Source of the DNA: a virus
Virus record (IMG/VR): IMGVR_UViG_3300010391_000071
Location: 1-29,983 of that record
Reading direction: 5' to 3' (one strand)
Length of the DNA stretch: 29,983 nucleotides
Both the position numbers and the translations under genes were made by a program. This document shows positions 8,541 to 29,983 of the stretch, piece by piece; the first letter of the stretch is position 1; each line of letters begins with the position of its first letter. Below the pieces are notes generated by a model. It ran no database searches, was not told where the DNA came from, and saw only the letters and a program-made list of their open reading frames with translations.

Positions 8541-11347
8541 TTCATCCCCGAGTTTGCCAGGGCCTTGTTGAAGTCCGACGCGGTCTTTGGCTCCGCTCGT
8601 TCCTTCTTGGCGGGGGTGTCGTCGTCCTTGTCGTCGATCTTCATCCAGTCCTTGATGCGCTTCATGTCTGGCTTGTCCGTGATGAGGCTGAAGTTGTAGG
8701 ACGGAATGGCCTTGATTGTGAATGCCTCCAGTGTGCCCTCACGATTGCCACCCATCACCAGTGCTAGCTCCCCACCTACCCTCTTGATGCCTGCCTCTGC
8801 GGAGAGCTTGTCCATCAGGTAGGAGTTCACCGTTCTCTTATCATCTACCTCTGACACTCCTAGCTTGATGCGGGGGAGCCTACGTCGGATGGGACTCGGG
8901 GCTGCTTTTGCATCTCGTAGTACCCGTACGAACTCCTCCTCGTAGTCCTCCTCATGCAGTCCGATGTAGCCGGGGCTCTTCAACACGCGAATGATGAGGT
9001 CGGCCTCCCTGGCTATGACGTCAGCATCTGCTAGGTCGGCCAGCGTGTTGCCGTAGGTCTTCTCACCAAGCCGATTGGCTTGATGCACCGCGACGATGGG
9101 CAGATGGACGTCTTCTGCATAGGCCTTCACGTCTTCCGCCATCGTTGCCACGCGCTGCCACCGTACCGTGATCTGCTCCGACCGCAGGGAGTCCATGTGG
9201 TAGAAGCTGTCCAGGTAGATGACGTCAGGCTCGAACTCTTCCACCTTCTCCTTCAGCCCCTCAAGACTCCTCGGGGCCTGCCTGCCGGCCAGCATGAGGA
9301 GATCCCGCATCCCTGCTGCAGCCCCTCGTCTCAGATCGTGCTTCACCCTGCCCGTGGTAAGAGACTCGAGCACGGCAAAGCAGTGCTCCCTCATCTTGGG
9401 TGGAAGCAGCCCCTTCTTAAACAGCTGGTAGTCAACCCGTGACAGCAGGGTTGCAAGACGAAGCCCCAGCTTGAGCGGGGACATCTCCTTCGACCAGATC
9501 AGGACCCGCTTGTTGTGGTTCAGGTAGTCGACGGCGGCGCAGTAGAGCAAGATCCATGTGTTGTGGACGACGAAGCCCTCCACAACAAAGTTCGGATCTT
9601 GCCCGTCCTCGATGCAGATGTCGTAGCAAGGCACTTGCCCGATTGGGGTTATGCTCTTGATCCTTTCCCAGGCAATGTCTTGGTTGGCTACATTTCGCAG
9701 CTCATCGGAGTCAAACGCCTCAGCCAGCTTTGTCAGCAAGCGCCTGCTGATCCGGCCGGACTGAAACAGCTTGGACTTATCCATCTTCGAGAGGCCAGAC
9801 TTTGGCCACTCGTATCCTTGCTTGGCTGCGATGATCGTGGACTCCAACTCCTTGGTCCACGGGATGGCGTCGGTGTTGACCCTCGTGGGCCCAGTGACGA
9901 CACCGAGCGTTGTGAGGGCCTTTCTCTTCCTTTCAGAGCTGAGGAACGGGCCCACAACCCTGTCAAGGGTCTGAGCGTCCTTCTTGGTGTAGACCGTCAA
10001 GCTGTAGGCTTCCGTCCCGTAATTGGTTGTGGCCTGATTCGCTCGGGCTCGAATGCCGAACCTGAGAAGGAGGTGTTGCAGATCCCCGATGAGCCCCTGG
10101 CTGGCGCTCTCCCATCGGACCACCTTCTTCACGTGGCCATCCGTATCGAGATAGCCCGCGATGAATGCGGCAATCGACTCCCGACTAGAGGTGAAGACTG
10201 CTCTGGGAATCCGCTTCTCAGGACCCTTGCTGCCATGGATCCCTAGATCCTTGAGTAGAGTGAGCACCTTGTTGTGCTTCTCTGTTGCCTCTCGACGGAC
10301 TCGGAACTCGATTGGCCGAGCCCCTACCGTGAGCACACAGTTATGACGAGCAGCATGCCTTCTCAGAGCCTGTAGGACGTCCTGATCAGCGCGAGTGTAG
10401 TTCCCGTCGCCTACCAACAGCCCTAGTAGATGCGCATCCTCGGGAGTTACTTGGTCTTTGTCTGGGCTCCATTCGGGCAGAGACCTAGCGGTGGCGACGT
10501 GGTTCCCCACTCTCAGATCCTTGATTCTCCGGTACTTGCCTCCTGGAACCATGTAGAGATGGTCCTTGCTGGTTCGGAGCCGCAGTCCGGACTCCGTCAC
10601 GACCTCCACGCTGTCTTTGGTGCCACTTACCACTCGCCTGGCCTTGGCCATGCGGATACGGCCGGTGGTCTCTGTGAACGACGGTGCCTTACAGAGCTCA
10701 GGTACCTCTTCGATAGGCAGCAGGGCTCCGTCTGGCATCATGACGCGCTGCCCTTCGCAGACGCACTTCATGCTCTTCATGCGGCCGTAGAACACCACGA
10801 AGTCACCGCCACGCTTGCCGAGCGTGTCCTCGGTCAGGCACTGCCAAGGCCAGGGAACCCCGAAGATGGCCCCCGTCTGGGCACCCTCGTAGTGCTCCTT
10901 GGCCATTGACAGGATTTCCTGGACACCCATCCCATTGGACTGCTCACCGGTATTGAGCTTGACCTCTATCTCCAACAGGCGCTTCTTCAACACCTGGATG
11001 GCGTTGACCGGGTCTTCCTCGACGAGCTCCTTGAAGTACTCCGACATCGACCAGACGTCGGACTCGAAAGCCTTCATCTTCAGTTCGTCGATGAGTGCTG
11101 TGAGCACCCCTTCCTCGTCCTGACTTGTGGCCGTAAGCGTGAACGCTGGCCACCTCTGGCGGACACGCTGTATTGTGGGCAGAGTTCCATTGGTATTTGG
11201 GTTGTACCAGTGCTGCTTCAGGAACCTGAAGATCATCCTGGAGTCGGGGTTGAGGAAGTGCTCTTCACATAGGCCGCGCTTCACCACCTCTTGAAACGAC
11301 CCGCTCTTCAGTACCTTCGTGAGAACACGATCCTCTAGTGCTGCCAT
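8537..11347 (-). CDS. dnaB: DnaB-type replicative helicase interrupted by an intein
   Basis: The precursor has 936 residues. Removing the intein (residues 195-596) leaves a 534-residue helicase. The N-terminal part (1-130) fits the DnaB N-domain. The RecA-type motor follows, with the P-loop split by the intein: GRMKSMK before it and T after it. Walker B is PDVIYLDSFYHMD, and the H3/H4 segment is PIVAVHQANR. DnaB proteins are hexameric 5'-3' helicases that unwind the fork and recruit primase. The rebuilt P-loop is GRMKSMKT, in which the Gly of the usual GK(T/S) is Met. The start at 11347 is preceded by GAGAGG. The C-terminus is Lys/Asp-rich. The primase start overlaps its stop. An accurate annotation must report mature helicase and intein separately. 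Confidence 0.93.
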   Translation of the reverse strand: MAALEDRVLTKVLKSGSFQEVVKRGLCEEHFLNPDSRMIFRFLKQHWYNPNTNGTLPTIQRVRQRWPAFTLTATSQDEEGVLTALIDELKMKAFESDVWSMSEYFKELVEEDPVNAIQVLKKRLLEIEVKLNTGEQSNGMGVQEILSMAKEHYEGAQTGAIFGVPWPWQCLTEDTLGKRGGDFVVFYGRMKSMKCVCEGQRVMMPDGALLPIEEVPELCKAPSFTETTGRIRMAKARRVVSGTKDSVEVVTESGLRLRTSKDHLYMVPGGKYRRIKDLRVGNHVATARSLPEWSPDKDQVTPEDAHLLGLLVGDGNYTRADQDVLQALRRHAARHNCVLTVGARPIEFRVRREATEKHNKVLTLLKDLGIHGSKGPEKRIPRAVFTSSRESIAAFIAGYLDTDGHVKKVVRWESASQGLIGDLQHLLLRFGIRARANQATTNYGTEAYSLTVYTKKDAQTLDRVVGPFLSSERKRKALTTLGVVTGPTRVNTDAIPWTKELESTIIAAKQGYEWPKSGLSKMDKSKLFQSGRISRRLLTKLAEAFDSDELRNVANQDIAWERIKSITPIGQVPCYDICIEDGQDPNFVVEGFVVHNTWILLYCAAVDYLNHNKRVLIWSKEMSPLKLGLRLATLLSRVDYQLFKKGLLPPKMREHCFAVLESLTTGRVKHDLRRGAAAGMRDLLMLAGRQAPRSLEGLKEKVEEFEPDVIYLDSFYHMDSLRSEQITVRWQRVATMAEDVKAYAEDVHLPIVAVHQANRLGEKTYGNTLADLADADVIAREADLIIRVLKSPGYIGLHEEDYEEEFVRVLRDAKAAPSPIRRRLPRIKLGVSEVDDKRTVNSYLMDKLSAEAGIKRVGGELALVMGGNREGTLEAFTIKAIPSYNFSLITDKPDMKRIKDWMKIDDKDDDTPAKKERAEPKTASDFNKALANSGMK
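9560..10765 (-). mobile_element. Intein in the helicase P-loop with LAGLIDADG endonuclease
   Basis: This is an in-frame 402-residue intein (precursor residues 195-596). It starts with Cys (CVCEGQRVMMPDG, splicing block A), has a TSKDHLY block B (residues 259-265) and ends VVEGFVVHN, followed by Thr as the first C-extein residue. Inside are the two LAGLIDADG helices, LLGLLVGDG (D314) and FIAGYLDTDG (D401/D403), so the homing endonuclease appears intact. It sits exactly between Lys and Thr of the Walker A motif, so the helicase should be inactive until splicing. Cys1, the terminal His-Asn and Thr+1 are all present, which predicts splicing competence. Confidence 0.92.
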
Positions 11348-11350
11348 AGG

Positions 11351-11692
11351 CTACCTCTCCTCTCCGAGTCCTTTGGGAAGCCCATCTTCCGACTCTGCAC
11401 CTCGGACTACCGGGGCCATTGGCCCAAATGGCGTCAAGACGCCACCTTCGAACACGACGTCCCCGAAGTCCTGCTCAGCGCATTTCAGGAACTCAATCAG
11501 TGCCTCTATGGTCTTGGGGCTAAAGGTCTTGAATGGGCACGACCCGTACGTGGTCTTGGTCGTGCTGTTCAGGTAGACCATCAGCACTTCGGCGGTGGGT
11601 ACTACATCCAGATCTGGCCTGTACTTGAAGGAGCCTTCGATGGCTACGACTGCATCGAAGGCTCCTGGGTTGGTTCCATCCCGGACGTACAT
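11351..11692 (-). CDS. Hypothetical protein
   Basis: The product has 113 residues from ATG 11692, with a GGAG ribosome site at normal distance. No known family is recognised. The sequence is mixed alpha/beta, starting VRDGTNPGAFDAVVAIEGS and containing LDVVPTAEVLMVYLNSTT and a Phe/Pro/Gly-rich C-terminus. It sits between the gene at 11696 and the helicase; its TAG is three bases before the helicase ATG. This tight packing indicates co-expression with the replication genes. Confidence 0.65.
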   Translation of the reverse strand: MYVRDGTNPGAFDAVVAIEGSFKYRPDLDVVPTAEVLMVYLNSTTKTTYGSCPFKTFSPKTIEALIEFLKCAEQDFGDVVFEGGVLTPFGPMAPVVRGAESEDGLPKGLGEER

Positions 11693-11695
11693 CGT

Positions 11696-12181
11696 CTATC
11701 TCCGGAACGACGGGGGCTGTACTCCCGGCTTGGCGGCAACCGCTGGGGGCTTGACGTTCGCCCTCGGCGGACTGGAGACCTTGCCAGGCTGTGCTGGTAT
11801 GGCCCCCGAGTGGGCATCCCGGTCCTCCTTCATCTTCTCCAGGTCCTCGTTGACCAGCTTCCGTGCTAGCGGCTGGATGATGTTGTGGGCTGCGTTGATG
11901 GCATCCTCGCTGTTGTTGCAGGTAGCAGAGACGCTCACGAACGCCTTTGCCGTGCAGTAGTCCTTGTTGTGGCTGAGTTCTGCACCCACGGTGACCTTCG
12001 CTTGGGCGTCCCCAATGTGCGCTTCGAGTGCTGCCATGTAGACCTCCGGGATGGGGTGTTGCTGACTCTGTTCTCTGGTGGTGACCTTCCCGTCCTCCTG
12101 CTTGACTGTCCACCCACGCATGCGGGTGACATGATCGACCAGGCCGACGTCGTGGACTTCGACCACTGCTTCGTTCTCCAT
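11696..12181 (-). CDS. Hypothetical protein
   Basis: The product has 161 residues from ATG 12181, preceded by TGAGG at good distance. The middle (about 60-115) reads as a folded domain with an AKVTVGAELSHNKDY segment and a following helix ending LARKLVNEDLEKMKED. The last 30 residues are Pro/Ala/Lys-rich and probably disordered (ANVKPPAVAAKPGVQPPSF). No named family is recognised. It is one of three consecutive unknown genes between the glycosylase and the helicase. Confidence 0.65.
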   Translation of the reverse strand: MENEAVVEVHDVGLVDHVTRMRGWTVKQEDGKVTTREQSQQHPIPEVYMAALEAHIGDAQAKVTVGAELSHNKDYCTAKAFVSVSATCNNSEDAINAAHNIIQPLARKLVNEDLEKMKEDRDAHSGAIPAQPGKVSSPPRANVKPPAVAAKPGVQPPSFRR

Positions 12182-12188
12182 GTAGACC

Positions 12189-12773
12189 TCAGATCTTGGG
12201 GACGGAGACGGCGCAGGTCATCTCTTCAACGTCCTTGAACGCCGGCTGGAATGCCTCTGCGTACCCAGGACGTTGGGCAAACCATGCGAGAGCCGCTTCT
12301 CGATTGAGCCCGATGGCAGACACGATGCCGCTCGTCAGCATCTCGTCGAAGACCTGGAGTCGGTTCTCCAGGGTTGCGAGGATCCTGGTGACCTCCTCGT
12401 CGTCGTAGCGGGCCTTGCTGAACTTCGGCTGGGCCTTGAAATCGCCGATGGACTGCTTGATCTTGGCGATGAGGGGCTTGGCCTTGGCGACGGCCTCCAT
12501 CACGATGTCTTCCTGCCGCATGATCTCCTGCTTCGCGATGTTGGCCTCGGGGAAGTTCTTCTCCCAGTCCTCCTTCATCTCAACGAGCATGCGCCTCTGG
12601 AGCTCGAAGTTCTCGACTGCCGCCCTTGCTGCAACGACATCCGGGTCCTCCCTCCGCTGTGGTGCAGCGACAGGCTTTGGCAACCCAGTCGGCTCAGGCT
12701 TGGGAACAGCCACTGCTTGTGGCGCCGGCTTCGGGTTGGCTCTCTTCACGTTTCCGATTGCTGGCTTGACCAT
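12189..12773 (-). CDS. Hypothetical protein with Pro-rich N-terminus and helical core
   Basis: The product has 194 residues from ATG 12773, preceded by AGAGGAAG. Residues 1-40 are Pro/Ala/Lys-rich (low complexity). Residues about 45-160 are strongly helical with charged heptad-like spacing (AAVENFELQRRMLVEMKEDW, RILATLENRLQVFDEML), consistent with a coiled coil. A short C-terminal domain includes AALAWFAQRPGYAEAFQPAF. No family is recognised. Such proteins could be replisome or nucleoid adaptors, but nothing in the sequence decides this. It starts one base after the glycosylase stop (TGACATG). Confidence 0.62.
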   Translation of the reverse strand: MVKPAIGNVKRANPKPAPQAVAVPKPEPTGLPKPVAAPQRREDPDVVAARAAVENFELQRRMLVEMKEDWEKNFPEANIAKQEIMRQEDIVMEAVAKAKPLIAKIKQSIGDFKAQPKFSKARYDDEEVTRILATLENRLQVFDEMLTSGIVSAIGLNREAALAWFAQRPGYAEAFQPAFKDVEEMTCAVSVPKI

Positions 12774-12774
12774 G

Positions 12775-13548
12775 TCACTTCCTCTCGAATCTCGGGACGG
12801 TGGCGTACTCGTGCTCCATGGTGGTCAGGTACTTCTTGATGTGCTTGAGATCCTCGAAGGTTCTCTGTGTGACCCCATCGGGTGGGAACTTCTGGTTCTT
12901 CTCGTCGTAGCTGTCCTCACGAAGGAGGTACGATGGGTGGAGAATCGGGATCATGTCGTACTCGAGATGTACTTCCCGCTTCTCTGAGTCCTTCTTAGGG
13001 AAGACGTGACCTGGAACTTCAGTGCTGTTTCGGTCACCCATCAGCTTGGCTGACACGTGCGGAGAGCTGAACACAACACCTCTGTGCTCAGTGATTGCCC
13101 AGTCCCTTCCTCTGGCTAGCGCCTTCAGGGAGACCTTGCCCACAGGCACTACGATCCACGGGTCCACGATGTATATGATCTGGTGGACACGGGGCATGCA
13201 CGCGTCCCGTTCCACGACTGACGGGTCCCGGTTCTTCCCCTTGTCGTCCATGGGCCGGCACGCTACGAGGTTGGTGACGTAGACATCCTCCCACTTGATA
13301 CCTGCGCTGTTCAGTAGGCTACGGAGCAGCTGGCCAGACACCCCACAGAAGGGCTCACCAGACGAGTCTTCCTCCTCGCCAGGCCCTTCACCAATGAACA
13401 GCAGCTTCGCATCAGGGTTACCCATCCCGAAGACGACGTTCGTTCGTGTGGCGCCGAGAGGACAGACCTGACAGTCCTTCCACTGCTCATAGATGCGGAA
13501 GAGCTGCTCCTCTTTCCACTCTCGACTCCAAGGCTTGAGCTCGCTCAC
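12775..13548 (-). CDS. Family 4 uracil-DNA glycosylase
   Basis: The product has 257 residues with a GTG start at 13548, chosen because GTGA overlaps the stop of the gene before it. Motif 1 reads FIGEGPGEEEDSSGEPFCG (51-69), and a HPSYLLR motif lies near residue 207. Four Cys suited to the [4Fe-4S] cluster of family 4/5 enzymes are present: C26 and C29 (CQVCPL), C97 (NLVACRP) and C117. These enzymes excise uracil from DNA and start base excision repair. In a phage this can protect the genome from deamination or remove dUMP during replication. A roughly 40-residue insertion before HPSYLLR (around residues 165-205) is longer than in many family members. Confidence 0.9.
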   Translation of the reverse strand: MSELKPWSREWKEEQLFRIYEQWKDCQVCPLGATRTNVVFGMGNPDAKLLFIGEGPGEEEDSSGEPFCGVSGQLLRSLLNSAGIKWEDVYVTNLVACRPMDDKGKNRDPSVVERDACMPRVHQIIYIVDPWIVVPVGKVSLKALARGRDWAITEHRGVVFSSPHVSAKLMGDRNSTEVPGHVFPKKDSEKREVHLEYDMIPILHPSYLLREDSYDEKNQKFPPDGVTQRTFEDLKHIKKYLTTMEHEYATVPRFERK

Positions 13549-13985
13549 GGGGTCTTTCTAGGTGGTGGTAGAGGTCCACCAACTAAGTGCAGCCCCGCAG
13601 CGGTTGCGGACAGGCGAGTCTCTGTCTCGACTGCCTGCTCGATCAGGTCCACGACCTGCTTCTTGCAGTCGTCACTGTTATCACCTGGGAAGTACCAGGA
13701 AGAAGGTATGACGTGGAGCTCCCGGAGCGGCCCGTTGAACAGATCGATTGGTAGAAGCATCAGCATCTTGGAGAGGCCAACGATGTTGCCCCTAGTGTCC
13801 ACACTGGGCGTTGTTTGACTCACGAGGTTGCGGACATCCTGCAGCTTGATTGGTAATCCTGCTTGGCCTCGTTCCTCCAGGTACTTCTTCGGGTCGAGAT
13901 TGGGCTCTTGTGGCACCCAGCCTAGGCATCTCTCCCCGTGCACCGCTGTGACTACGACAAGTCTCTCCCAGTCGATGTCCTTCAT
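13545..13985 (-). CDS. Hypothetical protein
   Basis: The product has 146 residues from ATG 13985. I chose this start because it overlaps the helicase stop as ATGA and has GGGAG just upstream, although the frame is open further up. The first half (VVVTAVHGERCLGWVPQEP) resembles a small beta-barrel-like start. The end is Pro/Arg-rich (GGPLPPPRKTP). No family is recognised. It is translationally coupled on both sides: to the SF2 helicase upstream and the glycosylase downstream. Confidence 0.65.
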   Translation of the reverse strand: MKDIDWERLVVVTAVHGERCLGWVPQEPNLDPKKYLEERGQAGLPIKLQDVRNLVSQTTPSVDTRGNIVGLSKMLMLLPIDLFNGPLRELHVIPSSWYFPGDNSDDCKKQVVDLIEQAVETETRLSATAAGLHLVGGPLPPPRKTP

Positions 13986-15382
13986 CTTCTCTCCCATGTC
14001 ACCCTTTCGTAGGGGTAATCGAACCTGCGTAGGACAGCCCTCAGACCACCGCACGACCTGATGCAGCACGCGAATGCCGCGTCCTCGAAGACCCTGACAA
14101 GCGGGGCTTTCTTGCCTTCGAACCTCCTCTGGATGCGGCCCCATGCCTGCTGAAGGTCGTTCGAGTTGCTGAAGGGCGTCACCACGTACAGCGTATCCAG
14201 CGAGGGCTTATTGAGCCCCTCACGTGCCAGCTGGAACGTCCCAAAGATGGGATTTGTCTCACGCAGGATTGGCATACGCTCTTCCTGTGGAGTACCCCCA
14301 GTAATCATCCCTGCGCCTCCACCGAAGTAGCCGTGAAGCAGCTCCACGTGGTTGACGCTGTGGCTGAGCACTAGAATCTGGCGGCCATCCTGAAGATCGC
14401 GGGCCAGGTGCTCATAGATCAGGTTGTTCCGCCACTCAAGACGCCCGAGGTAGGTACGGACTCTCGGAATGCTGATGTCGTCGTTGCGGTCCACCACGAG
14501 AGGCCGGTGCTTGGGCGGCATCTCCCACTTCAACAGGTGAAAGACCGAGTGCGGAACGAGTTCTTGTGTGAGGTTGCTGTGGATGACCCTGCCTAGGTGA
14601 TACTGGTAAATCACCTCCAGGCCGTCCGTCCTAGACGCTGTTGCCGTAAGGGAAAACCTCCTCCCAAAGAACAGGTCTGCACTGAGCACGAAGACAGGGG
14701 CGCTCATATGATGCCCCTCGTCATAGAAGACCAGACCGAACCGACGCCGGAACTCCATGGGCCACAGCCTGCTCGAGAGCGTGTGCACCATGGCCAGCAC
14801 GATTGGGTGGCCCTTCCAGTCCTGATTAGGTCCTTGCAGGGTGCCCACACTGTGGACACCCAGGTGCCGGACAATCTCTTCTCTCCACTGCTCTAGAAGA
14901 GCGGTGGTATTCACGACGATAATCGTCGGAACCTTGAACGCGGCAGCAGCCTTCAACGCAATGACGGTCTTGCCCTTTCCGCAAGACAGGTTGAGGGTGC
15001 CGCTGAAGTTGTTCAGGAGAGCTTCGTACGCAACGAGCTGCTCTTCGTCGCGGAGCTCTATGTGGTCGTCGATGCGCACCGTCTCGAATACCGGAGGTGG
15101 CACAGCTACGAACTCACACTGGAACTCGGGGTACTGTTCCAGAGGAAGGAACTCTCTCGGTACGATCACATGGGTATCTGTCTCATCCCAGAGCCTCAGC
15201 AACTTGGGCTTCGAACCAATCGGCTCTCCGGTGACCTCATCCAGAATCGGCTCCTCATCATTCAATGTGAACGTGAGTGCCGCCTTGATCACCGAAGTGT
15301 TGATGAAGCACTTTGGTAGCAACAGGTTGTTGGTGAGGTACGCCTTGTCACGGTCTTTCGCGACATAGCGGCACTCTGTCAT
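13982..15382 (-). CDS. Superfamily II DNA/RNA helicase
   Basis: The product has 466 residues from ATG 15382 (GGAG upstream; a TTG at 15394 is the alternative). Helicase motifs appear in order: a Q-like RDEEQ (111-115), motif I SCGKGKT (133-139), motif Ia VNTTALLEQW (157-166), motif II DEGHH (221-225), motif III LTATA (245-249), motif IV region ILVLSHSVNHVELL, and motif VI QQAWGRIQR. The first 105 residues form an extra N-terminal domain. The layout resembles the UvsW/XPB-like group of SF2 helicases, which in T4 resolves branched DNA and R-loops. The role here is inferred, not shown. The gene begins two bases after the stop of the HTH regulator. Confidence 0.88.
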   Translation of the reverse strand: MTECRYVAKDRDKAYLTNNLLLPKCFINTSVIKAALTFTLNDEEPILDEVTGEPIGSKPKLLRLWDETDTHVIVPREFLPLEQYPEFQCEFVAVPPPVFETVRIDDHIELRDEEQLVAYEALLNNFSGTLNLSCGKGKTVIALKAAAAFKVPTIIVVNTTALLEQWREEIVRHLGVHSVGTLQGPNQDWKGHPIVLAMVHTLSSRLWPMEFRRRFGLVFYDEGHHMSAPVFVLSADLFFGRRFSLTATASRTDGLEVIYQYHLGRVIHSNLTQELVPHSVFHLLKWEMPPKHRPLVVDRNDDISIPRVRTYLGRLEWRNNLIYEHLARDLQDGRQILVLSHSVNHVELLHGYFGGGAGMITGGTPQEERMPILRETNPIFGTFQLAREGLNKPSLDTLYVVTPFSNSNDLQQAWGRIQRRFEGKKAPLVRVFEDAAFACCIRSCGGLRAVLRRFDYPYERVTWERR

Positions 15383-15383
15383 G

Positions 15384-15794
15384 TCAGACTCCAAGCACGG
15401 ACTTCAGGATCATGGCTATGCGTTTCTCCATCACTGCTCTCACCGGCTCCTTCACCTCTATGCCTGCTTGCTTCAGCACGAAGACCGTCTCCGTCCTGAT
15501 CCTCTTTGCCAGGGCATCGCAGTCTACTGCAGGGGTCTGACAAGACGGGATACCCACTTGCTGGGCCTTGGCCTCATTGCGCAGTTGGATAAGCGTGTCG
15601 GCTGCCAGCTTGGAGACGCCTGTCTTCTCAAGGATCAGCTTCAGTACAGCCAGACTGGGAATCCTCTCCCCGGTCTCATATTTCCGGTAGCCGCCTTCGC
15701 TCAAGCCCACCTGGTAGGCGAACTCCTCCTGGTCAGGCCATCGTGAGCGAACCCGTAGGCCTGCGAGTGCGGTGTGCAGGGGGTGTAGTGCCAT
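15384..15794 (-). CDS. XRE/Cro-type helix-turn-helix regulator
   Basis: The product has 136 residues with a strong AGGAGGAG ribosome site before ATG 15794. Residues 8-62 form a Cro/C1-type HTH: LAGLRVRSRW, then QEEFAYQVGLSEGGYRKYETGERIPSLAVLKLILE, with the usual recognition-helix and turn pattern. The C-terminal half (about 70-136) is helical and unassigned. It is the second gene of the leftward block, where early regulators are commonly found, and it lies 515 bp from the divergent control region. It could repress its own operon or control the timing of the two arms. This is inference. Confidence 0.8.
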   Translation of the reverse strand: MALHPLHTALAGLRVRSRWPDQEEFAYQVGLSEGGYRKYETGERIPSLAVLKLILEKTGVSKLAADTLIQLRNEAKAQQVGIPSCQTPAVDCDALAKRIRTETVFVLKQAGIEVKEPVRAVMEKRIAMILKSVLGV

Positions 15795-15822
15795 GTCTCC
15801 TCCTACTCACAATCTATGTACC

Positions 15823-16308: not shown

Positions 16309-16416
16309 GGGCTAACCTCCTTAAGGTTAGGGTTCAGGATACTTATGCCGGGGATCCAGGGGGTTTTTCGTTGACCCCGTAGGCCCGAAATAGCTACGGT
16401 TTCTAGTGAGGACGGC
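16309..16416. promoter_or_regulatory. Divergent control region with inverted repeat
   Basis: This 108-bp spacer separates the leftward replication block from the rightward virion block and must hold start signals for at least one of them. CCGTAG (16377-16382) and CTACGG (16394-16399) form a 6-bp inverted repeat with an 11-nt spacer, a plausible operator or hairpin. TTGACC (16371-16376) could be a -35 box for the rightward genes, but the best -10 at suitable distance (TACGGT) is poor. A run of five T at 16364-16368 sits in a G-rich context. No clear sigma-70 promoter is visible for the leftward genes; a phage-specific promoter is possible. Confidence 0.45.
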
Positions 16417-18834: not shown

Positions 18835-18843
18835 AGGAGCAAC

Positions 18844-20995: not shown

Positions 20996-20998
20996 TAG

Positions 20999-23900
20999 AT
21001 GATTGACGCCCTGACGTTCGGCCCTGCAGGCGGCCTGCGCTTCTCCAGGAACACTGGCCGTTCCATGACCAGTGAGGCCCTTGGGGCCATCCGCTACCCC
21101 TCGCCCTTCTTCGACATCGCGCACACGTATCTGCCGTCGTCCTTCAAGACGATGCTCAGGTGGTGCCGCTACTATTACCTGACGAACCCGATTATCAGTG
21201 CGGTCTGCTCGAAGATGGCAGAGTACCCAGTGACGGACCTCGTGTTCGACACCGAGAACGAGACCCTTCGCAAGCAGTGGGAGTACTTCTTCCACAACGT
21301 CCTCAAGTTCAAGATGTTCGAGGTCGAGGCTGGGCTCGACTACAACGTCTACGGTAACGCCCTCATCTCGATGGCCTTCCCGTTCCAGAAGCTGCTTATC
21401 TGCAAGCACTGCAACCATACGGCCCGCATCGAGAAGCAGAAGTATATCTTCCGCGAGTACAAGTTCGTGGGTGAGTGCCAGAGGTGCGGCAACCATCAGG
21501 AGTTCCAGGTCCGCGACCACTACGTCCGATCGGTCCGTGACATCCGACTGATTCGCTGGAACCCAGAGTACATCACCGTCCAGCACAATGAGGCCACGGG
21601 CGAGAGCCGGTACTACTACGTCATTCCGCCGATGCTGGCGAACGATGTGCGCATGGCGAAGCGGCACATCATCGAGCGCATCCCGCAGGTCTTCATGGAG
21701 GCACTGCGCCAGAACAAGGCGCTGCTCTTCAGTCGGGACAACATCTACCACATGAAGCGCCCCACCATCGCCCAGAAGGACAAGGGCTGGGGCATGCCGA
21801 TGATCCTGCCGGTGTTGAAGGACACCTTCTACCTGCAGGTCCTCCGCAAGGCGCAGGAGGCCATTGCCGTCGAGCACATCGTCCCTCTTCGACTGCTCTT
21901 CCCGCAGACGGCCTCACCTGATGCGAGTGTCTACTGCACGTCGCTGGACACCCTAGTCGAAACTCGAGATGGACCTCTGCCTGCGTCGGAAGTGAAGTTG
22001 GGGGACTACCTCAAGTCACGCGTGGGGAGTTGGGAGAAGGTGGAAGCAATCGCGGATCGACCTGTTCGACCCGATGAGACGACCAGAGAGTTCACGGTGG
22101 CCTCCTTGCCCGCCTTCCCGTTCACCTTGTCGGAAGAGCACCCGGTGTGGGCAGCCACCGAACACAACCCTTGGAGCTACGATGGGGTAGGAGAGCCGGA
22201 CTGGGTCGATTCCAAGGATCTGAAGGAAGGCGACTTTGTCCTCTACCCCGTGGGCAGAAAGACCTGGTCCAACCTCGACCTCGATCTTGCTGGATACGTC
22301 AAAGAGCGGGCTTACACCGAGCGGTACATCTACCGTCGCCTGAGCCTAGCCAAGGCAGAGATCTACGAGTGGCTGGAGATGAACGGCTTGCCAGAGTTCC
22401 AACGTGGCGAGCGCGAGACCTTCCTTCAAGACCACAAGTGGGACCTCCAGGATTGGGTCACTGCCCGAAGTGTTTTCACCGAGCAGGAGTCGGTTGACCG
22501 AGTGCCTCGCTACCTCCGGGTGACTGAGGAGTTGGCCTACATCATCGGGCTATACGCAGCGGAGGGCTTCTCGAATGGGGACAGTGCCTCTTTGGCGCTC
22601 AACTCCAGCGAGACCAATCTTATGGACCGGATGGACGAGGCCCTGATGTCCATTGGAATGGGCGCCCCTACTCGTCATTTCCACTCGACGGACAAGGGGG
22701 CGACTTACGCCACCAACGACGTCATCTTGGGCGAGTTCCTGAAGAACGCCTGTGGACATGGGGCGGGCCACAAGAAGCTTCCCCGGTTCATTATGGAAGC
22801 GCCTGACGGCATTGCTCTAGCTGCCTTGGAGGGCCTGTTCTCGGGGGATGGGTCCTGCACGTTCACAGAAGCCACCTCAACGGTAGGACTGGTCACCACT
22901 AGCCCGTCACTGGCTGTAGGGTCTCGGCAGCTACTTCTTTCCATGGGGTACATCCCCACTATCAGCAAGCGCGCGCCCAAAGAAGGCAGCTTCGGAATCA
23001 GCGACTCTTACGAGGTTCGCTGCAGCGGCGCGCAGGCTGAGTCGTTGGCAGGAGCGTTCGGCTGGCCAGTCGTGGGCAAGACTCGGGTGAAGAATGAATG
23101 GAGCGGCTGCGGGTTCATCCGGGACGGCTATGTCTACCTGAGGGTCAGGAAGGTCGCAGAGCGACCCGTCTCTACCGTGCGTGGCTTCCAGATGGCGGGG
23201 GACAAGTCCTTCTGTGTGGTGGGGGTGGCAACCCACAACTCGACGGTCAACCTGACCCAGTGGCGTGACAAGATCGAGCAGGAGATCGTTCGCTGGAGAC
23301 TCGACAACAACTACATCCCTCTCCTCCCCATTCCTGTAGGCCAGCAGACCCTCGGCGGCGATGGTCGTGCCCTCATGCTGGCGCAGGAGTACCGGGTGTG
23401 GTGCGAGCACATCATCTCCGGCATGGGCGTTCCCATCGAGTTCTACTTTGGCGGGATGCAGTTCTCAGGCAGCAACGTCTCGATGCGTATCCTCGAGAAC
23501 CACTTCCTTGACCAAAGGACCCAGCGTAAGCAGCTGGTCACCGACTTCATCATGCCTAACGTCTCAGCATTCATGGGCTGGGAGCCGGTGCCGTGCCACT
23601 ACAAGCGCTTCAAGATGGCTGACGACCTGCGGCGCAGTGCCCTCTACCTGCAGATGAACCAGGCTGGCAAGCTGTCCGACAAGTCCCTGATGGAAGACAT
23701 GGACTGGGATGCCGTCAAGGAGTCCGAGATCATCTCCATCGAGCAGAAGCGCGTCCTCGAGAACCAGCGTTCCCAGGCTCTCGCACAGGCAGGCATCCAG
23801 GGTGAAGCACAGCTCGTCCAGGTGAAGTACCAGATGCGCGGCCAGAAGATCATGATGGAGCAACAGGTTCCGCCCATTGCCCCGGAGGACCAGAAGATGC

Positions 23901-24340
23901 TCCAGGAGCAGGGTATGGCCGCAGCGGGGCAGCCTGGCGTGGCCAGCCCAACAGCGATGGGCGCACAGGGCAACTCCCAGATGGCGATGATGAACCGGGC
24001 AGGGGCTGTCCCACCCATGCCGTTCGCCGGCGAACAGCAGGGCCAAGAACAGGGACAGGGGTCAGCAGCGGCTGCAGGTGGGGAGTCTCCACTGGTCGCT
24101 AACCAACCAGCCCAGATGGATATCTTCACCGTGGCCAACCAGGTAGTCGGTTGGCTCAACCAGCTGCCCGAGCATGAGAAGCAGAAGGAGCTCGTGCAGA
24201 TGCAGCAGGCCAACCCACAGCTCTACTCTATGGTTCTGCAGCTGCTGCAGCAGAGCCGTGGGGCCAACAAGAACTCGGCTGCCATGCCATTGCCTGAGCA
24301 GAGGCCCCCAATGCGCGGCCCGGAGGCGTCATCGATATGA
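20999..24340 (+). CDS. Portal protein interrupted by an intein
   Basis: The precursor has 1113 residues; removing the intein (313-747) leaves 678. The N-extein reads like a portal: TNPIISAVCSKMAEYPVTDL (62-81), FEVEAGLDYNVYGNALISM, and RDNIYHMKRPTIAQKDKGWG. The C-extein continues with the portal stem region and ISGMGVPIEFYFGGMQFSGS, and ends in a Gln/Ala/Met-rich tail. Portals form the dodecameric ring at the capsid vertex through which DNA is packaged and ejected. A zinc ribbon (C135, C138, C160, C163) is inserted near residue 150, which is uncommon. Translation starts four bases after the previous stop, with a weak GGGTGA site. The next gene overlaps its stop as ATGA. Confidence 0.85.
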   Translation: MIDALTFGPAGGLRFSRNTGRSMTSEALGAIRYPSPFFDIAHTYLPSSFKTMLRWCRYYYLTNPIISAVCSKMAEYPVTDLVFDTENETLRKQWEYFFHNVLKFKMFEVEAGLDYNVYGNALISMAFPFQKLLICKHCNHTARIEKQKYIFREYKFVGECQRCGNHQEFQVRDHYVRSVRDIRLIRWNPEYITVQHNEATGESRYYYVIPPMLANDVRMAKRHIIERIPQVFMEALRQNKALLFSRDNIYHMKRPTIAQKDKGWGMPMILPVLKDTFYLQVLRKAQEAIAVEHIVPLRLLFPQTASPDASVYCTSLDTLVETRDGPLPASEVKLGDYLKSRVGSWEKVEAIADRPVRPDETTREFTVASLPAFPFTLSEEHPVWAATEHNPWSYDGVGEPDWVDSKDLKEGDFVLYPVGRKTWSNLDLDLAGYVKERAYTERYIYRRLSLAKAEIYEWLEMNGLPEFQRGERETFLQDHKWDLQDWVTARSVFTEQESVDRVPRYLRVTEELAYIIGLYAAEGFSNGDSASLALNSSETNLMDRMDEALMSIGMGAPTRHFHSTDKGATYATNDVILGEFLKNACGHGAGHKKLPRFIMEAPDGIALAALEGLFSGDGSCTFTEATSTVGLVTTSPSLAVGSRQLLLSMGYIPTISKRAPKEGSFGISDSYEVRCSGAQAESLAGAFGWPVVGKTRVKNEWSGCGFIRDGYVYLRVRKVAERPVSTVRGFQMAGDKSFCVVGVATHNSTVNLTQWRDKIEQEIVRWRLDNNYIPLLPIPVGQQTLGGDGRALMLAQEYRVWCEHIISGMGVPIEFYFGGMQFSGSNVSMRILENHFLDQRTQRKQLVTDFIMPNVSAFMGWEPVPCHYKRFKMADDLRRSALYLQMNQAGKLSDKSLMEDMDWDAVKESEIISIEQKRVLENQRSQALAQAGIQGEAQLVQVKYQMRGQKIMMEQQVPPIAPEDQKMLQEQGMAAAGQPGVASPTAMGAQGNSQMAMMNRAGAVPPMPFAGEQQGQEQGQGSAAAAGGESPLVANQPAQMDIFTVANQVVGWLNQLPEHEKQKELVQMQQANPQLYSMVLQLLQQSRGANKNSAAMPLPEQRPPMRGPEASSI
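21935..23239 (+). mobile_element. Intein in the portal gene with LAGLIDADG endonuclease
   Basis: This is a 435-residue intein (precursor residues 313-747). It starts CTSLDTLVETRDG (block A), has a TLSEEHPVWA block B (H381) and ends DKSFCVVGVATHN, followed by Ser as the first C-extein residue. LAGLIDADG helices are YIIGLYAAEG (E522) and ALEGLFSGDG (D617), each keeping an acidic residue, so the endonuclease may be active. The exteins join as ASPDASVY to STVNLTQW. Confidence 0.92.
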
Positions 24341-24756: not shown

Positions 24757-24763
24757 CACGGCT

Positions 24764-24786
24764 AAAAAGAGGCCCGAAGGCCTCTT
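24764..24786. terminator. Hairpin terminator between convergent genes
   Basis: An 8-bp stem (AAGAGGCC, 24767-24774, with GGCCTCTT, 24779-24786) closes a CGAA loop, read as TTCG on the minus strand. On the minus strand the stem is followed directly by TTT, making a run of five T with the stem's last bases, as expected for an intrinsic terminator of the leftward genes. The plus strand has a weaker T-rich tail (CTGTTAG), so it may act on both convergent transcripts. Confidence 0.85.
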
Positions 24787-24789
24787 CTG

Positions 24790-25074
24790 TTAGCTCTTCT
24801 TTCCCTCCAGAACCATGTTGGTCTTGGTGATGAACCTGTGCCTACAGGCAGGGCACACCTGCTTGTGGAGGAAGTTGAACTCCTCGCGGACTTGTTTCTC
24901 CACTTCCCCATTGATGGAGTCGCGGAACCGCTCCACGAAGAACTCCTCCATGCACGATGCTTCGGAGCAAAAGTGCCGCTCCTTATCCCCGATCCTGACG
25001 ATGTCAGGTAGCCCCTGTACCACCTTGCCACAGTGGTCACACCTTACCACGCCAGACCTTCCGACGTGGCTCAT
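24790..25074 (-). CDS. Small zinc-binding protein
   Basis: The product has 94 residues with AGGGAG upstream of ATG 25074. Cys residues C12, C15, C36 and C41 (CDHCG to CSEASC) form one likely zinc site, and C74/C77 (CPACRHRF) form half of another. The middle is helical and charged. The ATG overlaps the stop of the preceding gene (ATGA). It is the last gene of its short leftward cluster, ending four bases before the terminator hairpin. No family is recognised. Confidence 0.68.
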   Translation of the reverse strand: MSHVGRSGVVRCDHCGKVVQGLPDIVRIGDKERHFCSEASCMEEFFVERFRDSINGEVEKQVREEFNFLHKQVCPACRHRFITKTNMVLEGKKS

Positions 25075-25628
25075 GGGAGGTACTCCCTGAGATCGGGTGT
25101 GTCTGAGGCCTCTATCAACCGCCAGAGCTCGAGCTTCAGGTCATCCATACACAGGTAGTGCACATGGCCTGTCTCACTCGGGTGGAAGATCGAGAATTCG
25201 CCTCTCGTGCTAGGCGCCATCTCTCCTACTTCGATGAGGACTGCTGAAGACCAATCCTCCATGGGGTACGGCTCAATGCACCTGTTACACAGGCAGCACT
25301 GACCGTCTGGCTTGAGGTTTTTGAGACGCTCTGAGAAGTGGCCATCGTCTCCAGTGATGTCACACTCCCAAGCGCACCTCGTGCACACCCACTTGAGCTT
25401 CCCTCGGTCTTCGAAAGGAAGCTCGATAAACTCTGCACCCCATTTCCGTCGTCGGATACAACCATGCCTTAGTCGGATGGCGCCGGGCCCAGTAAACGCT
25501 TCTCCGCAACTAAGACATGTTCCTACTGACCTAGAGAGGTGTTTGGGAAATGCCCTGACTGCCTTAGGGGCAGTCGGCTTTGCTACGACCCGAGATGTTG
25601 TGATGATCGCGGGCCTTCGTGAGTTCAT
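25071..25628 (-). CDS. Multi-Cys zinc-finger protein
   Basis: The product has 185 residues from ATG 25628, with GGAGG nine bases upstream. The first 30 residues are basic (SRRPAIITTSRVVAKP). Cys/His clusters follow: C38/C41 with H55/C57, then C82/C85/C89, then C111/C112/C114/C117. These suggest two or three zinc sites. The C-terminal part is acidic and helical (LCMDDLKLELWRLIEA). No named family is recognised. A regulator or an RNA-polymerase-associated factor is possible given the divergent rpoB nearby, but this is speculation. Confidence 0.66.
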   Translation of the reverse strand: MNSRRPAIITTSRVVAKPTAPKAVRAFPKHLSRSVGTCLSCGEAFTGPGAIRLRHGCIRRRKWGAEFIELPFEDRGKLKWVCTRCAWECDITGDDGHFSERLKNLKPDGQCCLCNRCIEPYPMEDWSSAVLIEVGEMAPSTRGEFSIFHPSETGHVHYLCMDDLKLELWRLIEASDTPDLREYLP

Positions 25629-25680
25629 AGATGAGCCTCCGCATGAGGCCCACTATAAATCCAGCCAGTATGAGTCTCAT
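25564..25680 (-). CDS. Tiny single-pass membrane protein (38 residues)
   Basis: ATG 25680 has a perfect TAGGAGGA ribosome site six bases away. The product begins MRLILAGFIVGLMRRLI, a short hydrophobic helix with Arg flanks, then YELTKARDHH and a polar tail. It overlaps the next gene by 65 bp in another frame. It might be a holin-like, accessory lysis or membrane-anchoring peptide, but nothing specific is visible. The ribosome site is the main evidence that it is real. Confidence 0.5.
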   Translation of the reverse strand: MRLILAGFIVGLMRRLIYELTKARDHHNISGRSKADCP

Positions 25681-25687
25681 TGTCCTC

Positions 25688-25846
25688 CTAGCTGACCACA
25701 TCCTCGTCGTTGTTCCGCACCTCGTCCTCACTCGACGGAGTGGGGTCGGACTGGGGCTCGTCGGTGGGCTCCACGTTGAGGAACCCACTGACGAGCTCAT
25801 CCTGCACGATGCTGCGGAACACTTCGGTTGAGGTGGGGGTCGTCAT
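25688..25846 (-). CDS. Small acidic protein (52 residues)
   Basis: ATG 25846 is preceded by GGAGG at good distance; the TAG stop lies within the ribosome site of the next tiny gene. The product starts MTTPTSTEVFRSIVQDEL and its second half is very acidic (EDEVRNNDEDVVS, DEPQSDPTPSSEDE). Short acidic phage proteins often bind basic host factors or mimic DNA. No family is recognised. It is the first gene of the leftward cluster that runs opposite to rpoB. Confidence 0.55.
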   Translation of the reverse strand: MTTPTSTEVFRSIVQDELVSGFLNVEPTDEPQSDPTPSSEDEVRNNDEDVVS

Positions 25847-26000
25847 CCTAGCCTCCGGGCTTGGGTCAAAGATTGGGCCTCCGTAGTTCTTATGCCAGAA
25901 GTTGGTGCCTTGCTTTCATGGGTGTAGGATGTCTGGAAACGTGGTACCCATCCATCGCTCAGGCTGCCTCGCGTAGCCCACGACAGTGCTGAGAGGCCTG
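25847..26000. promoter_or_regulatory. Divergent spacer upstream of rpoB with a promoter candidate
   Basis: This 154-bp spacer lies between the leftward small-gene cluster and rpoB. The best plus-strand promoter is TTGGTG (25902-25907), 17 bp, TAGGAT (25925-25930), which would give a leader of about 64 nt. It matches the sigma-70 consensus at 3 of 6 and 4 of 6 bases, so it is weak. On the minus strand no convincing promoter was found. GAGAGG (25991-25996) is the rpoB ribosome site. Confidence 0.4.
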
Positions 26001-29000
26001 ATGGCACACTACTCGCCGGAAGACGCCTTTGAAGAGCTGAAGCAGCGTACCTCCAAGACAATCCAGAACTACTTCCCGATCGAAGGTCGGCAGCACACGT
26101 TGTCTGCCAAGAAGGTCTGGGTCGAGGACAACAAGGGTGTCGACGACATCCGCGATCAGAAGGACGCCAAGGTCAAGGGTCGTAGTTGGACCGTCCCCAT
26201 CCGTGCCGAGCTCGAGCTGAAGGACAACCTGACCGGCAAAATCATCGACCGCCAGGTCGTCAACGTTGCTCAGCTCCCCAAGATCACCCGTCGCTACAGC
26301 TACATCGTTGACGGCAACGAATGGCAGGTGAACAACGTCTTCCGCATGAAGTCGGGTGTCTACACCCGCATCCGGAAGAACGGTGAGCTCACCGCCATGT
26401 GGAACCTGGCCAAGGGCCAGAACTTCCACATGGACTTCAGCCCGAAGAACCAGAAGATGTCGCTTCGCTACGGCGAGGCTCAGATTCCTCTCTACCCGGT
26501 GCTCAAGACTATGGGCATCGATGACGACTCCATAGAGCGCTCTTGGGGCAAGGACATCTTCAGTGCCAACAAGGCAGGGACTGATGAGGTAGCCCTTCGC
26601 AAGTTCTACCGAGCCATACGTGGGTCCAACCCAGAGACTCTGGATGAGGCCAAGAAGTTCATCCTCGACGAGTTCGACAAGTCGGTCCTGCGCCCCGACT
26701 CCACCCAGCTCACTCTTGGCAAGCCCTATGACAAGGTTTCAGGGTCGGCTCTCCTCGATGGCTCTCACAAGATCCTGAGGGTCTCCCGCCAGGAGATTGA
26801 GCCAGATGACCGGGACTCACTCCCGTTCAAAGACCTCCACTCTGCTGAAGATCTCATCAACGAGCGCCTGGAGAAGTGGAAGACCGAGAAGGATGTCAAG
26901 AGGAAGATTGGCAACACACTGGACAAGAACACCAAGGTCCGGGACATCATCAACCCGGATATCTTCGGCAAGCCCCTGCGCCGTTTCTTCACCAGCTCCG
27001 TTCTTTCTGAGCGTCCGACGCAGACGAACCCCATCAGCTTCATCTCGGGGAACCGGAAGACCACTCTCTTTGCACCTGGTGAAGGCGGCATCTCTTCGGC
27101 CCACCAGATTTCTCTCGAGGCCCAGTCCATCAACCCCAGCCACCTGGGCTTCTTGGATCCAATCATGACCCCGGAGAGCGAGCGCATCGGCGTGACGCTG
27201 CAGCTCGCCTCCCAAGTAGTGAAGGAAGGGCACGATATCAAGATCCCTGTCTTCAACATGAAGACCGGCAAGCGGGACATGATCAACCCGTATCAAGCGC
27301 TCAAGTCCAACCTCGCCTTCCCTGACCAGTACGAGTGGAAGGGAGGCAAGCCGACCTCTTTGAAGACCCACATAAAGGTCTCCGACCCCGACGGCACTGT
27401 GACAGTGGTGAAACCAAGCGAGGTGGACTACGTCCTTGGTTCGTCAAAGGGCATGTTTGACCTACCGGCCAATCTGATCCCATTTCTCCAGAACAACCAG
27501 GGCAACCGCACCATGGTTGCCTCTCGCCAGATCGAACAGGCCATTGCCTTGAAGGATCGAGAAGCACCGTTGGTCCAGACCCGCAGCGACAAGCCTTCCC
27601 GCACGTTCGAGCAAGGCATTGGCGAGTTCGTGAGCCACGTCGCGCCGTTTGACGGCACCGTGGAGAAGGTGAAGAAGGACGGCATCATCATCAAGGACAA
27701 GGCTGGGAAGCGCCTTGAGGTTCAGCTCTACGACGACTTCCCCCTGAATGACGACAAGAGTGTTCTCAATAGCACCCCGACTGTGAAGGTGGGCGATTCG
27801 GTGAAGGCAGGGCAGGTAGTAGCCGACACCAACTTCACGAAGGGTGGCGTCTTGGCTCTAGGCACCAACCTGCGTGTCGCCTACATGCCCTGGAAGGGCT
27901 ACAACTTCGAGGACGGTATCGTCATCTCTGAGACTGCAGCCAGGAAGCTAACGTCGGAGCACCTCTTCCGGGAAGGTATCACCGCCGAGAAGAGCCTCAG
28001 GCTCGACAAGAAGAAGTTCCTCTCCTACATGGCCGGCAAGGTCTCGAACGAGCAGGCTGAGAAGCTTGACGATGACGCAATCATTCGTGAGGGTCAGGTT
28101 GTCAACAAGGACGATGTTCTCATAGGTGTGCTCAAGGAGGAGACGATTAGCCCAGACGAGCAGAAGCTCGGGTTGTTCTCGAAGGGGCTCATACGTCCCT
28201 GGAAGCCTCGTGAGATCCGCTGGACGAAGGACGTCCCCGGCATGGTCACCAAGGTGGTGAAGCACGGTAGGGACACTACGATCTACATCCGTGCAGAGAC
28301 ACCGGCAGACGTGGGCGACAAGATCGTGGGGCGGCACGGCAACAAGGGCATCATCACGAACATCATGCCCGATCATGAGATGCCCCATGACAAGGATGAC
28401 AAGCCTGTCGAGGTCATCCTCAATCCAACTGGCATTCCCTGCTACGACGAGGAGACGGAGTTCCTCACGACTGAGGGGTGGGTCCGGGCTCCCGACATCA
28501 AGGCAGAGCACACCTACGCCACGCTCAACCCCAAGACTCTGACTTTGGAGTTCCAGAAGCCCGAAGAGGTCTATCATGTCCCCCACAAGGGCAAGATGTA
28601 CCGAGTCCAGAATCAGCAGCTTGACGTGCTGGTGACCCCAAACCACAAGCAGTTTACGGCAAGGCGGGGCAACCACCTGATGTCTGGACCTCTTGATCTG
28701 GACAACCCGGAGGTGCCGTCCCTATTCGAGCTGAGAGAGGCCAAGGAGATATTCGGGCAGCCTCGCCGGTACCTGAAGGCTGCCAGATGGGGAGGCACCA
28801 GCGAGTTTATGTACCACGTGCCGAACGGCACTCCGGCCTCAAGCGGCCGGCCGGCTGACGGGTTCAACATCAGCGCTCCCCAGTGGGCCGAGTTCATGGG
28901 GTGGTACCTGTCGGAGGGCAGCACCTACTTCAATCAGGCCAACTACGGATATGTAGTCGAGATCTCCCAGAGCAAGGAAGCTAACCCGGAGAAGTACGAT

Positions 29001-29983
29001 CGGATCGTTGCTCTCGTGGAGATGATGGGAGTGAACTTCGAGCAGGCGCCGCAAGGCATTCGCATCAAGCACAAAGGGCTCTATGAGCTGCTCCGGCCCC
29101 TGGGAGGAGCTCGAGAGAAGTACATCCCTCGCTCAGTGCTCGACATGGATTCGAGGCACTTGAGGATTTTCCTGGATGCACTTCTCTCTGGTGATGGATC
29201 GGAAACGTGGGACGAGGAGACGGGCCACTACGGTAACCAGCGCTACTGGACTTCGTCCAAGCTTCTTGCCGACGGCGTACAGGAAGTATGCGCCAAGCTC
29301 GGCATTGCGGCCAACGTGAAGAGAGAGACTCGCCGCGGGGAGGGGGCCTGCTACCACCTGTCGATTAGCGGGAGCCGCGCTGCTCCTTGGGTGAACTGGT
29401 CAGACACTACCAAGCTTAACCAGGTGGAGGAGTGGATCGACTACGACGGGATCGTTCACTGCGCCACGGTCCCCAATGGAGTCCTTCTAGTCCGAAGGAA
29501 CGGCAAGGCAGTCTTCAGCGGTAACACTCGTATCAATCTTGGCCAGGTACTCGAGACCTCTGCAGCCAAGATTGCGGAGAAGACTGGCAAGCCCTACGTC
29601 GTCAACAACTTCGACCCCAAGGTTCCTGACTACACACGGAAGCTGAAGGCGGAGCTGAAAGAGGCGGGCGTTTCGGATACCGAGGACCTCTACGACCCAG
29701 TCACCAAGCGCAAGTTCCCAAACGTCCTGGTTGGGCCCCAGTACATCCTCAAGCTGCACCATACAGCAGAGAAGGGTCTGTCCGTCCGCTCTCGCGATGC
29801 CTACGATTCAAACATGCTACCTGCCGGCGGCGGTCCCAAGGGCGGTCAGACCATGGATGTCATGGGCCTGTACGCCATGCTGGCGCACAACGCCCGCGAG
29901 AACATCCGCGAGATGCAGACCTATAAGTCCGATTTTAACGATGATTTCTGGGCCCAGCTCCAAGCAGGAGATTCGATCCCCAC
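26001..29983 (+). CDS. rpoB: RNA polymerase beta subunit interrupted by an intein (C-terminus beyond window)
   Basis: The frame is open for 1327 codons from ATG 26001 to the window end. Without the intein (814-1175), 965 residues of beta are visible. Landmarks in order, aligned by eye to bacterial beta, are: the protrusion-type YSYIVDGNEWQVNNVFR; the fork region NPSHLGFLDPIMTPESERIG; PANLIPFLQNNQGNRTMVAS; YNFEDGIVISE (634-644); VGDKIVGRHGNKGII (771-785, with K774 and K782 at positions matching catalytic-site lysines of E. coli beta); VEVILNPTGIP; and after the intein TRINLGQVLET, LKLHHTAEKGLSVRS, GGQTMDVMGLYAML and ENIREMQTYKSD. Beta with beta' forms the RNA polymerase active centre. A phage copy implies its own transcription of phage genes. 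It is a single polypeptide here, not split as in phiKZ-type phages. The ribosome site is GAGAGG. Confidence 0.95.
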   Translation, partial: MAHYSPEDAFEELKQRTSKTIQNYFPIEGRQHTLSAKKVWVEDNKGVDDIRDQKDAKVKGRSWTVPIRAELELKDNLTGKIIDRQVVNVAQLPKITRRYSYIVDGNEWQVNNVFRMKSGVYTRIRKNGELTAMWNLAKGQNFHMDFSPKNQKMSLRYGEAQIPLYPVLKTMGIDDDSIERSWGKDIFSANKAGTDEVALRKFYRAIRGSNPETLDEAKKFILDEFDKSVLRPDSTQLTLGKPYDKVSGSALLDGSHKILRVSRQEIEPDDRDSLPFKDLHSAEDLINERLEKWKTEKDVKRKIGNTLDKNTKVRDIINPDIFGKPLRRFFTSSVLSERPTQTNPISFISGNRKTTLFAPGEGGISSAHQISLEAQSINPSHLGFLDPIMTPESERIGVTLQLASQVVKEGHDIKIPVFNMKTGKRDMINPYQALKSNLAFPDQYEWKGGKPTSLKTHIKVSDPDGTVTVVKPSEVDYVLGSSKGMFDLPANLIPFLQNNQGNRTMVASRQIEQAIALKDREAPLVQTRSDKPSRTFEQGIGEFVSHVAPFDGTVEKVKKDGIIIKDKAGKRLEVQLYDDFPLNDDKSVLNSTPTVKVGDSVKAGQVVADTNFTKGGVLALGTNLRVAYMPWKGYNFEDGIVISETAARKLTSEHLFREGITAEKSLRLDKKKFLSYMAGKVSNEQAEKLDDDAIIREGQVVNKDDVLIGVLKEETISPDEQKLGLFSKGLIRPWKPREIRWTKDVPGMVTKVVKHGRDTTIYIRAETPADVGDKIVGRHGNKGIITNIMPDHEMPHDKDDKPVEVILNPTGIPCYDEETEFLTTEGWVRAPDIKAEHTYATLNPKTLTLEFQKPEEVYHVPHKGKMYRVQNQQLDVLVTPNHKQFTARRGNHLMSGPLDLDNPEVPSLFELREAKEIFGQPRRYLKAARWGGTSEFMYHVPNGTPASSGRPADGFNISAPQWAEFMGWYLSEGSTYFNQANYGYVVEISQSKEANPEKYDRIVALVEMMGVNFEQAPQGIRIKHKGLYELLRPLGGAREKYIPRSVLDMDSRHLRIFLDALLSGDGSETWDEETGHYGNQRYWTSSKLLADGVQEVCAKLGIAANVKRETRRGEGACYHLSISGSRAAPWVNWSDTTKLNQVEEWIDYDGIVHCATVPNGVLLVRRNGKAVFSGNTRINLGQVLETSAAKIAEKTGKPYVVNNFDPKVPDYTRKLKAELKEAGVSDTEDLYDPVTKRKFPNVLVGPQYILKLHHTAEKGLSVRSRDAYDSNMLPAGGGPKGGQTMDVMGLYAMLAHNARENIREMQTYKSDFNDDFWAQLQAGDSIP
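28440..29525 (+). mobile_element. Intein in the RNA polymerase beta gene with LAGLIDADG endonuclease
   Basis: This is a 362-residue intein (precursor residues 814-1175) starting CYDEETEFLTTEGW (block A), with QLDVLVTPNHKQFTA as block B. The endonuclease helices are EFMGWYLSEG (E972) and FLDALLSGDG (D1065). Block F/G reads HCATVPNGVLLVRRNGKAVF and ends SGN. The penultimate residue is Gly instead of the usual His; Asn is followed by Thr. The exteins join NPTGIP to TRINLGQ, so it sits in one of the most conserved parts of beta. Confidence 0.93.

Follow-up and report, generated by a model that had tools for sequence, protein, structure and literature searches.

Three LAGLIDADG inteins that look like independent insertions in the helicase, portal and RNA polymerase genes of a phage

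Known inteins and the present locus

Inteins are already known from phage TerL, portal and helicase proteins (PMC5050341), and RNA polymerase inteins from eukaryotes and their viruses (PMC1635734). Those of the mycobacteriophages, whose hosts are TerL, portal, helicase, nucleotidyltransferase and other proteins, are sporadic and sit at active sites of packaging, portal and DNA enzymes; splicing and endonuclease activity have been shown for several of them (PMC5050341). The RPA2/RPB2/RPC2 inteins of eukaryotes and algal viruses occupy six non-allelic conserved sites in the second-largest RNA polymerase subunit, and ectopic intein movement is held to be rare (PMC1635734). In mycobacteria, the DnaBi1 intein (P-loop site b) interrupts the Walker A loop of a DnaB-type helicase (PMC6195587). 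The zeta crAss-like phages have been called unprecedented in the density of their introns and inteins, and reach three inteins per genome (PMC7886860).

The stretch of DNA analysed here (the window), a 29,983-base virus record from IMG/VR, carries inteins with their own LAGLIDADG domain in three genes, those for the replicative helicase, the portal protein and RNA polymerase beta. These inteins resemble the mycobacteriophage elements in their sporadic occurrence, their active-site positions and the kinds of protein they enter, but that work (PMC5050341) names no RNA polymerase host, and identity to the window inteins is about 25%. The RNA polymerase intein is similar in length to the RPA2/RPB2/RPC2 inteins, interrupts the equivalent subunit and, like some of them, ends in Gly-Asn; unlike it, they lie in eukaryotic-type genes (PMC1635734). 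The helicase intein shares the Walker A loop with DnaBi1, although DnaBi1 is a class 3 mini-intein without an endonuclease, whereas the window intein is of class 1 and has one (PMC6195587). While the zeta crAss-like phages have mostly introns (PMC7886860), the window's clade has inteins, eleven of them on a 48.9-kb contig of one relative. Full-length matches to the RNA polymerase intein (27%) are found in Lak-A1, whose record is without annotation, and in Corynebacterium phage P1201, where, unlike in the window, the host is thymidylate synthase.

A literature search of partial coverage returned no phage RNA polymerase intein, and none in an RNA polymerase of bacterial type. Across 84,980 genomes, a pattern scan aimed at bacterial rpoB with Cys at NPLG[VI]P, which is blind to Ser1 inteins and to other preceding residues, gave six matches, none of them in rpoB; a similar viral scan, which would miss the RNA polymerase allele described below (L071) since its preceding residues differ, gave nothing. 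Within the material searched, the intein sites in a phage RNA polymerase of bacterial type appear to be new, and so does the intein density.

Anatomy of the three inteins

The original prediction of three LAGLIDADG inteins stands: each is full-length and in frame within one uninterrupted ORF, and the predicted range, 9560-29525, coincides exactly with the outermost intein junctions. The features are as follows (a slash marks a splice junction).

8537..11347, minus strand: DnaB-like replicative helicase ORF (PF03796, 3.8e-11; phrog_19, 6.9e-28)
9560..10765, minus strand: helicase intein, 402 aa, C1...HN/T (PF14890, PF14528, junctions, empty site, allele in relative G009)
20999..24340, plus strand: portal protein ORF (32.6% to the annotated portal of Salmonella phage Arash)
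21935..23239, plus strand: portal intein, 435 aa, C1...HN/S (PF14528, PI-PkoII profile, AlphaFold, Foldseek, empty site)
25986..29981, plus strand: beta part of an RNA polymerase gene, truncated at the contig end; relatives have this gene as a beta-beta' fusion
28440..29525, plus strand: RNA polymerase beta intein, 362 aa, C1...GN/T (PF14528, TliVMA profile, AlphaFold, Foldseek, allele in L071)

The Cys1, C-terminal Asn and acidic LAGLIDADG residues that had been reported are present in all three. The helicase (C1/N402/T), portal (C1/N435/S) and RNA polymerase (C1/N362/T) inteins thus have the residues of class 1, and Cys1 in each rules out class 3, which is without a nucleophile at position 1. 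The block B histidine, read by eye, lies in SKDH (helicase), SEEH (portal) and TPNH (RNA polymerase). The two LAGLIDADG motifs are LLGLLVGDG and IAGYLDTDG in the helicase intein (acidic residues D/D), IIGLYAAEG and LEGLFSGDG in the portal intein (E/D), and FMGWYLSEG and LDALLSGDG in the RNA polymerase intein (E/D).

LAGLIDADG_3 (PF14528) is above the Pfam cut-off in the helicase (6.6e-13), portal (5.9e-12) and RNA polymerase (8.6e-12) inteins. Intein_splicing (PF14890) passes its cut-off in the helicase intein alone (1.2e-11); the Hint assignment of the other two rests on profile matches to PDB inteins and on AlphaFold models, which support both. Profile (HMM) searches match solved inteins in all three cases: PI-PfuI, TliVMA and a DnaB mini-intein for the helicase, PI-PkoII (6.7e-14) and also gp41-1 for the portal, and the TliVMA intein (1e-10) and AceL NrdHF for RNA polymerase. 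The portal model has a pLDDT of 87.9, with intein endonucleases as top Foldseek matches; the RNA polymerase model has a pLDDT of 81.5 and matches solved inteins. The best matches of the two models are TliVMA, PI-PkoII, PI-SceI and PI-PfuI. Taken together, the motifs and profiles indicate that all three inserts are very probably canonical class 1 mobile inteins.

The helicase precursor of 936 aa would be 534 aa once the intein is excised; the intein-free orthologue in a metagenomic relative (G002) has 538 aa and is 84% identical. The intein, with junctions GRMKSMK/CVCEGQ...VVHN/TWILL, splits the Walker A loop between Lys and Thr. The RNA polymerase intein (NPTGIP/CYDEET...FSGN/TRINLG) ends in Gly-Asn and not His-Asn, an ending also found in eukaryotic RPB2 inteins (PMC1635734). 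By alignment offset its site, NPTGIP/TRINLGQ, corresponds to Pro1104/Ser1105 of E. coli beta. The identity of this host gene is solid, with PF00562 found in the intein-free orthologue; in G002 the orthologue (L045, 1356-7559) is a single 2068-aa ORF in which beta and beta' are fused and both Rpb2 and Rpb1 domains are found, whereas in Arash Rpb1 domain 5 is on a separate gene.

The portal precursor has 1113 aa, 678 aa once the intein (PDASVY/CTSLDT...ATHN/STVNL) is excised. A Pfam search of the window protein gave no clear family. A PHROG portal family, phrog_16240, matches the protein of Vibrio phage D69 (9e-8), Arash likewise has a PHROG portal match (4e-7), SPP1_portal matches one relative (1.1e-4), and for the closest relative of the window the PHROG portal match reaches just 4e-4; the portal identity of the window gene is supported only through such relatives. 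The claim that all three inteins sit at conserved or core sites holds for the Walker A loop and for NPxG[IV]P/[ST]R, but the portal site is conserved within the clade only.

Lineages, empty sites and the shared-condition question

The three inteins differ in length and sequence, as had been noted, and when aligned with each other they are unrelated outside the core motifs. Their relationships were analysed with a maximum-likelihood tree of 31 inteins, all from this phage clade, and by all-against-all BLAST. The window inteins fall into three different clades of the tree: a portal group (100/99), a group of the RNA polymerase beta inteins with one TerL intein (100/99), and a group of the helicase inteins with TerL P-loop inteins (94/91). 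Their allelic partners share only their own site. This agrees with the proposal of separate invasions. A single invader that spread among the three genes inside this phage would account for the shared class 1 type and domain order, and for the weak similarity of the LAGLIDADG regions (E 1e-6 and 2e-4). Such an origin is nevertheless very unlikely, since each intein groups with those that other phages carry at the same site or in the same gene, and alleles are 33-71% identical over their full length, compared with a local similarity of 24-28% among the three. With relatives that are mostly genome fragments as its basis, the comparison makes the three inteins look like independent selfish insertions and not like a shared switch.

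Among annotated phages the nearest are Arash and Vibrio phages D69, D181 and D148; their portal and RNA polymerase exteins are about 27-38% identical to those of the window, and neither of these two inteins is present in them. Metagenomic relatives of up to 88% identity were found, among them G002, whose proteins are 84-88% identical to those of the window. When the 60 nt of window sequence on either side of each intein were joined and aligned with the intein-free G002 gene, the alignments were gap-free over 120 nt in all three cases (106, 106 and 91 identities). Intein-free alleles, which the original prediction had proposed to look for in related phages, therefore exist and show exact, in-frame insertion, and empty sites this clean speak against a sequencing error as the reason for the absence of the inteins.

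Among contigs that cover each site, with rows left ambiguous by the script settled by reading the junctions, the RNA polymerase site (824 in G002 numbering) is occupied in 2 of 89 (the window and 3300033429_000003), portal site 312 in 6 of 87, and helicase site 195 in 2 of 14 (the window and 3300037851_000538); a later scan of the portal family added further carriers at site 312. Most relatives keep these genes intein-free. Among contigs readable at more than one of the sites, no second contig with two of the three alleles was seen, many contigs being fragments and the helicase readable in few.

The alleles differ in the state of their endonuclease. The helicase allele of G009 has 281 aa, with LAGLIDADG motif 1 deleted and motif 2 altered; at its two splicing ends it shares 63% and 74% identity with the window intein, while the exteins are 44-47% identical. 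This matches the homing cycle, in which the G009 allele would have lost its endonuclease and retained splicing. The RNA polymerase allele in L071 is 71% identical to that of the window, and in the endonuclease region of this pair pN is 0.20 against a pS of 0.77, a rough estimate with synonymous sites near saturation, which points to purifying selection on the intein, including its endonuclease. Were the inserts splicing-dead remnants or assembly chimeras, the three genes would be inactivated. The window is a single contig known from sequence alone, yet the frames are open, every catalytic residue is present, alleles at the same sites come from other metagenomes, and there are signs of purifying selection; this is the least probable of the alternatives considered, and remote.

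In the proposed mechanism, which draws on knowledge of the family, the precursor would be translated with the intein inside, and the Hint domain would excise it by means of Cys1, the terminal Asn and the +1 Thr or Ser, and then join the flanks. In related phages that co-infect the cell, the freed LAGLIDADG endonuclease would cut those alleles of its host gene that lack the intein, and repair of the cut allele would copy the intein across. The three inteins would have arrived separately and may have persisted as they are found at positions from which they could not be lost imprecisely without destroying an essential gene. The alleles match such a cycle of gain and decay, in that some endonucleases are conserved and others decayed, while the splicing parts are always kept.

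It had also been suggested that the three inteins depend on a common splicing condition, in which one cue, redox or temperature, gates replication, head assembly and transcription together. All three host genes are expected to be essential and two are hit at catalytic-core motifs; single conditional inteins are known, such as the oxidation-responsive P-loop DnaB intein of M. smegmatis (PMC6195587); and conserved cysteines in addition to Cys1 are present in every lineage. The accessory cysteines are at differing positions, however (C3, C380 and C384 in the helicase lineage, C427 in the portal lineage and C341 in the RNA polymerase lineage), and shared sensor residues were looked for and none found. 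The lineages are unrelated, no checked relative has two of the three alleles, and most have none of these inteins. A common condition is thus not borne out, and coordinated splicing is highly improbable, to the same degree as the single invader. Redox effects on single inteins are possible, because each lineage has those additional cysteines. Independent insertion does not need coordinated regulation to explain the three inteins.

Intein load in the phage clade

The phage clade is unusually rich in inteins. The beta-beta' RNA polymerases of relatives have at least ten intein sites (661, 783, 793, 824, 958, 1382, 1384, ~1790, 1821 and 1825 in G002 numbering); at least four further sites lie in the portal gene, and TerL and a DEAH-type helicase have three and two. 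The 48.9-kb contig, 3300041809_000868 (L160, L211-L213), has eleven inteins. RNA polymerase holds four of them, the portal three and TerL one; the DEAH-type helicase has one with an HNH domain, and a further ORF has two, the last of which is truncated at the contig end. Together the complete inteins amount to 3902 aa, or about 24% of the contig DNA.

A scan for the portal intein family found 19 loci, all within portal genes and at site 291, 312 or 334, which span 43 codons; the scan pattern was built from these same inteins, so that divergent members elsewhere could escape it. Members at different sites are similar over their full length, while matches elsewhere in the phage collection are weak, which suggests that the family may have spread by hopping between neighbouring sites of the portal gene. 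More tentatively, and at somewhat less than even chances, the clade may host gene-bound intein radiations, in which ectopic moves between neighbouring sites in one gene (portal 291/312/334, perhaps also RNA polymerase beta') let inteins build up to eleven on 49 kb, at sites that include the NADFDGD motif and the trigger loop of RNA polymerase. Local hopping is not claimed for the RNA polymerase beta family, whose members are about as distant from each other (24-32%) as from thymidylate synthase or TerL inteins.

In such a clade, many active-site positions of one polymerase occur both with and without an intein; these natural matched pairs can be used to test homing, decay and spread within a gene, and the clade is a source of new splicing elements. 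For annotation, the genes for portal, terminase and polymerase in such phages may be two to three times the expected length.

Several further elements were observed. In the RNA polymerase ORFs of L137, L138 and L090, inteins lie in or adjoin the NADFDGD catalytic motif of beta'. The apparent last residue of these inteins is Asp (VWD/T or /S) instead of Asn, and two start with Ser; splicing in L090 would yield ...FDGN, which makes this junction unsure. The window's own DEAH-type helicase (13982-15394, minus strand) has an intein-free motif II, YDE-G-HH, while those of G004 and G007 have an intein exactly at this motif (YDE/CHH); the window protein has Gly at the +1 position, which could not act as a splicing nucleophile. 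The G004 and G007 inteins (L049 and L053) have an Arg/Glu/Ser-rich stretch between the splicing halves, recognisably common to both, in which the genome scan gave no LAGLIDADG match.

An Rfam search of the window returned nothing, with no group I intron at threshold. A small ORF at 3015-3527 (minus strand) has cysteine pairs and is HNH-like by eye, with no Pfam match. In Vibrio phage D181 a group I intron (L006, 21494-21774; RF00028, E 1.3e-26) splits the RNA polymerase beta gene and adjoins a homing endonuclease gene, while the D69 gene is uninterrupted.
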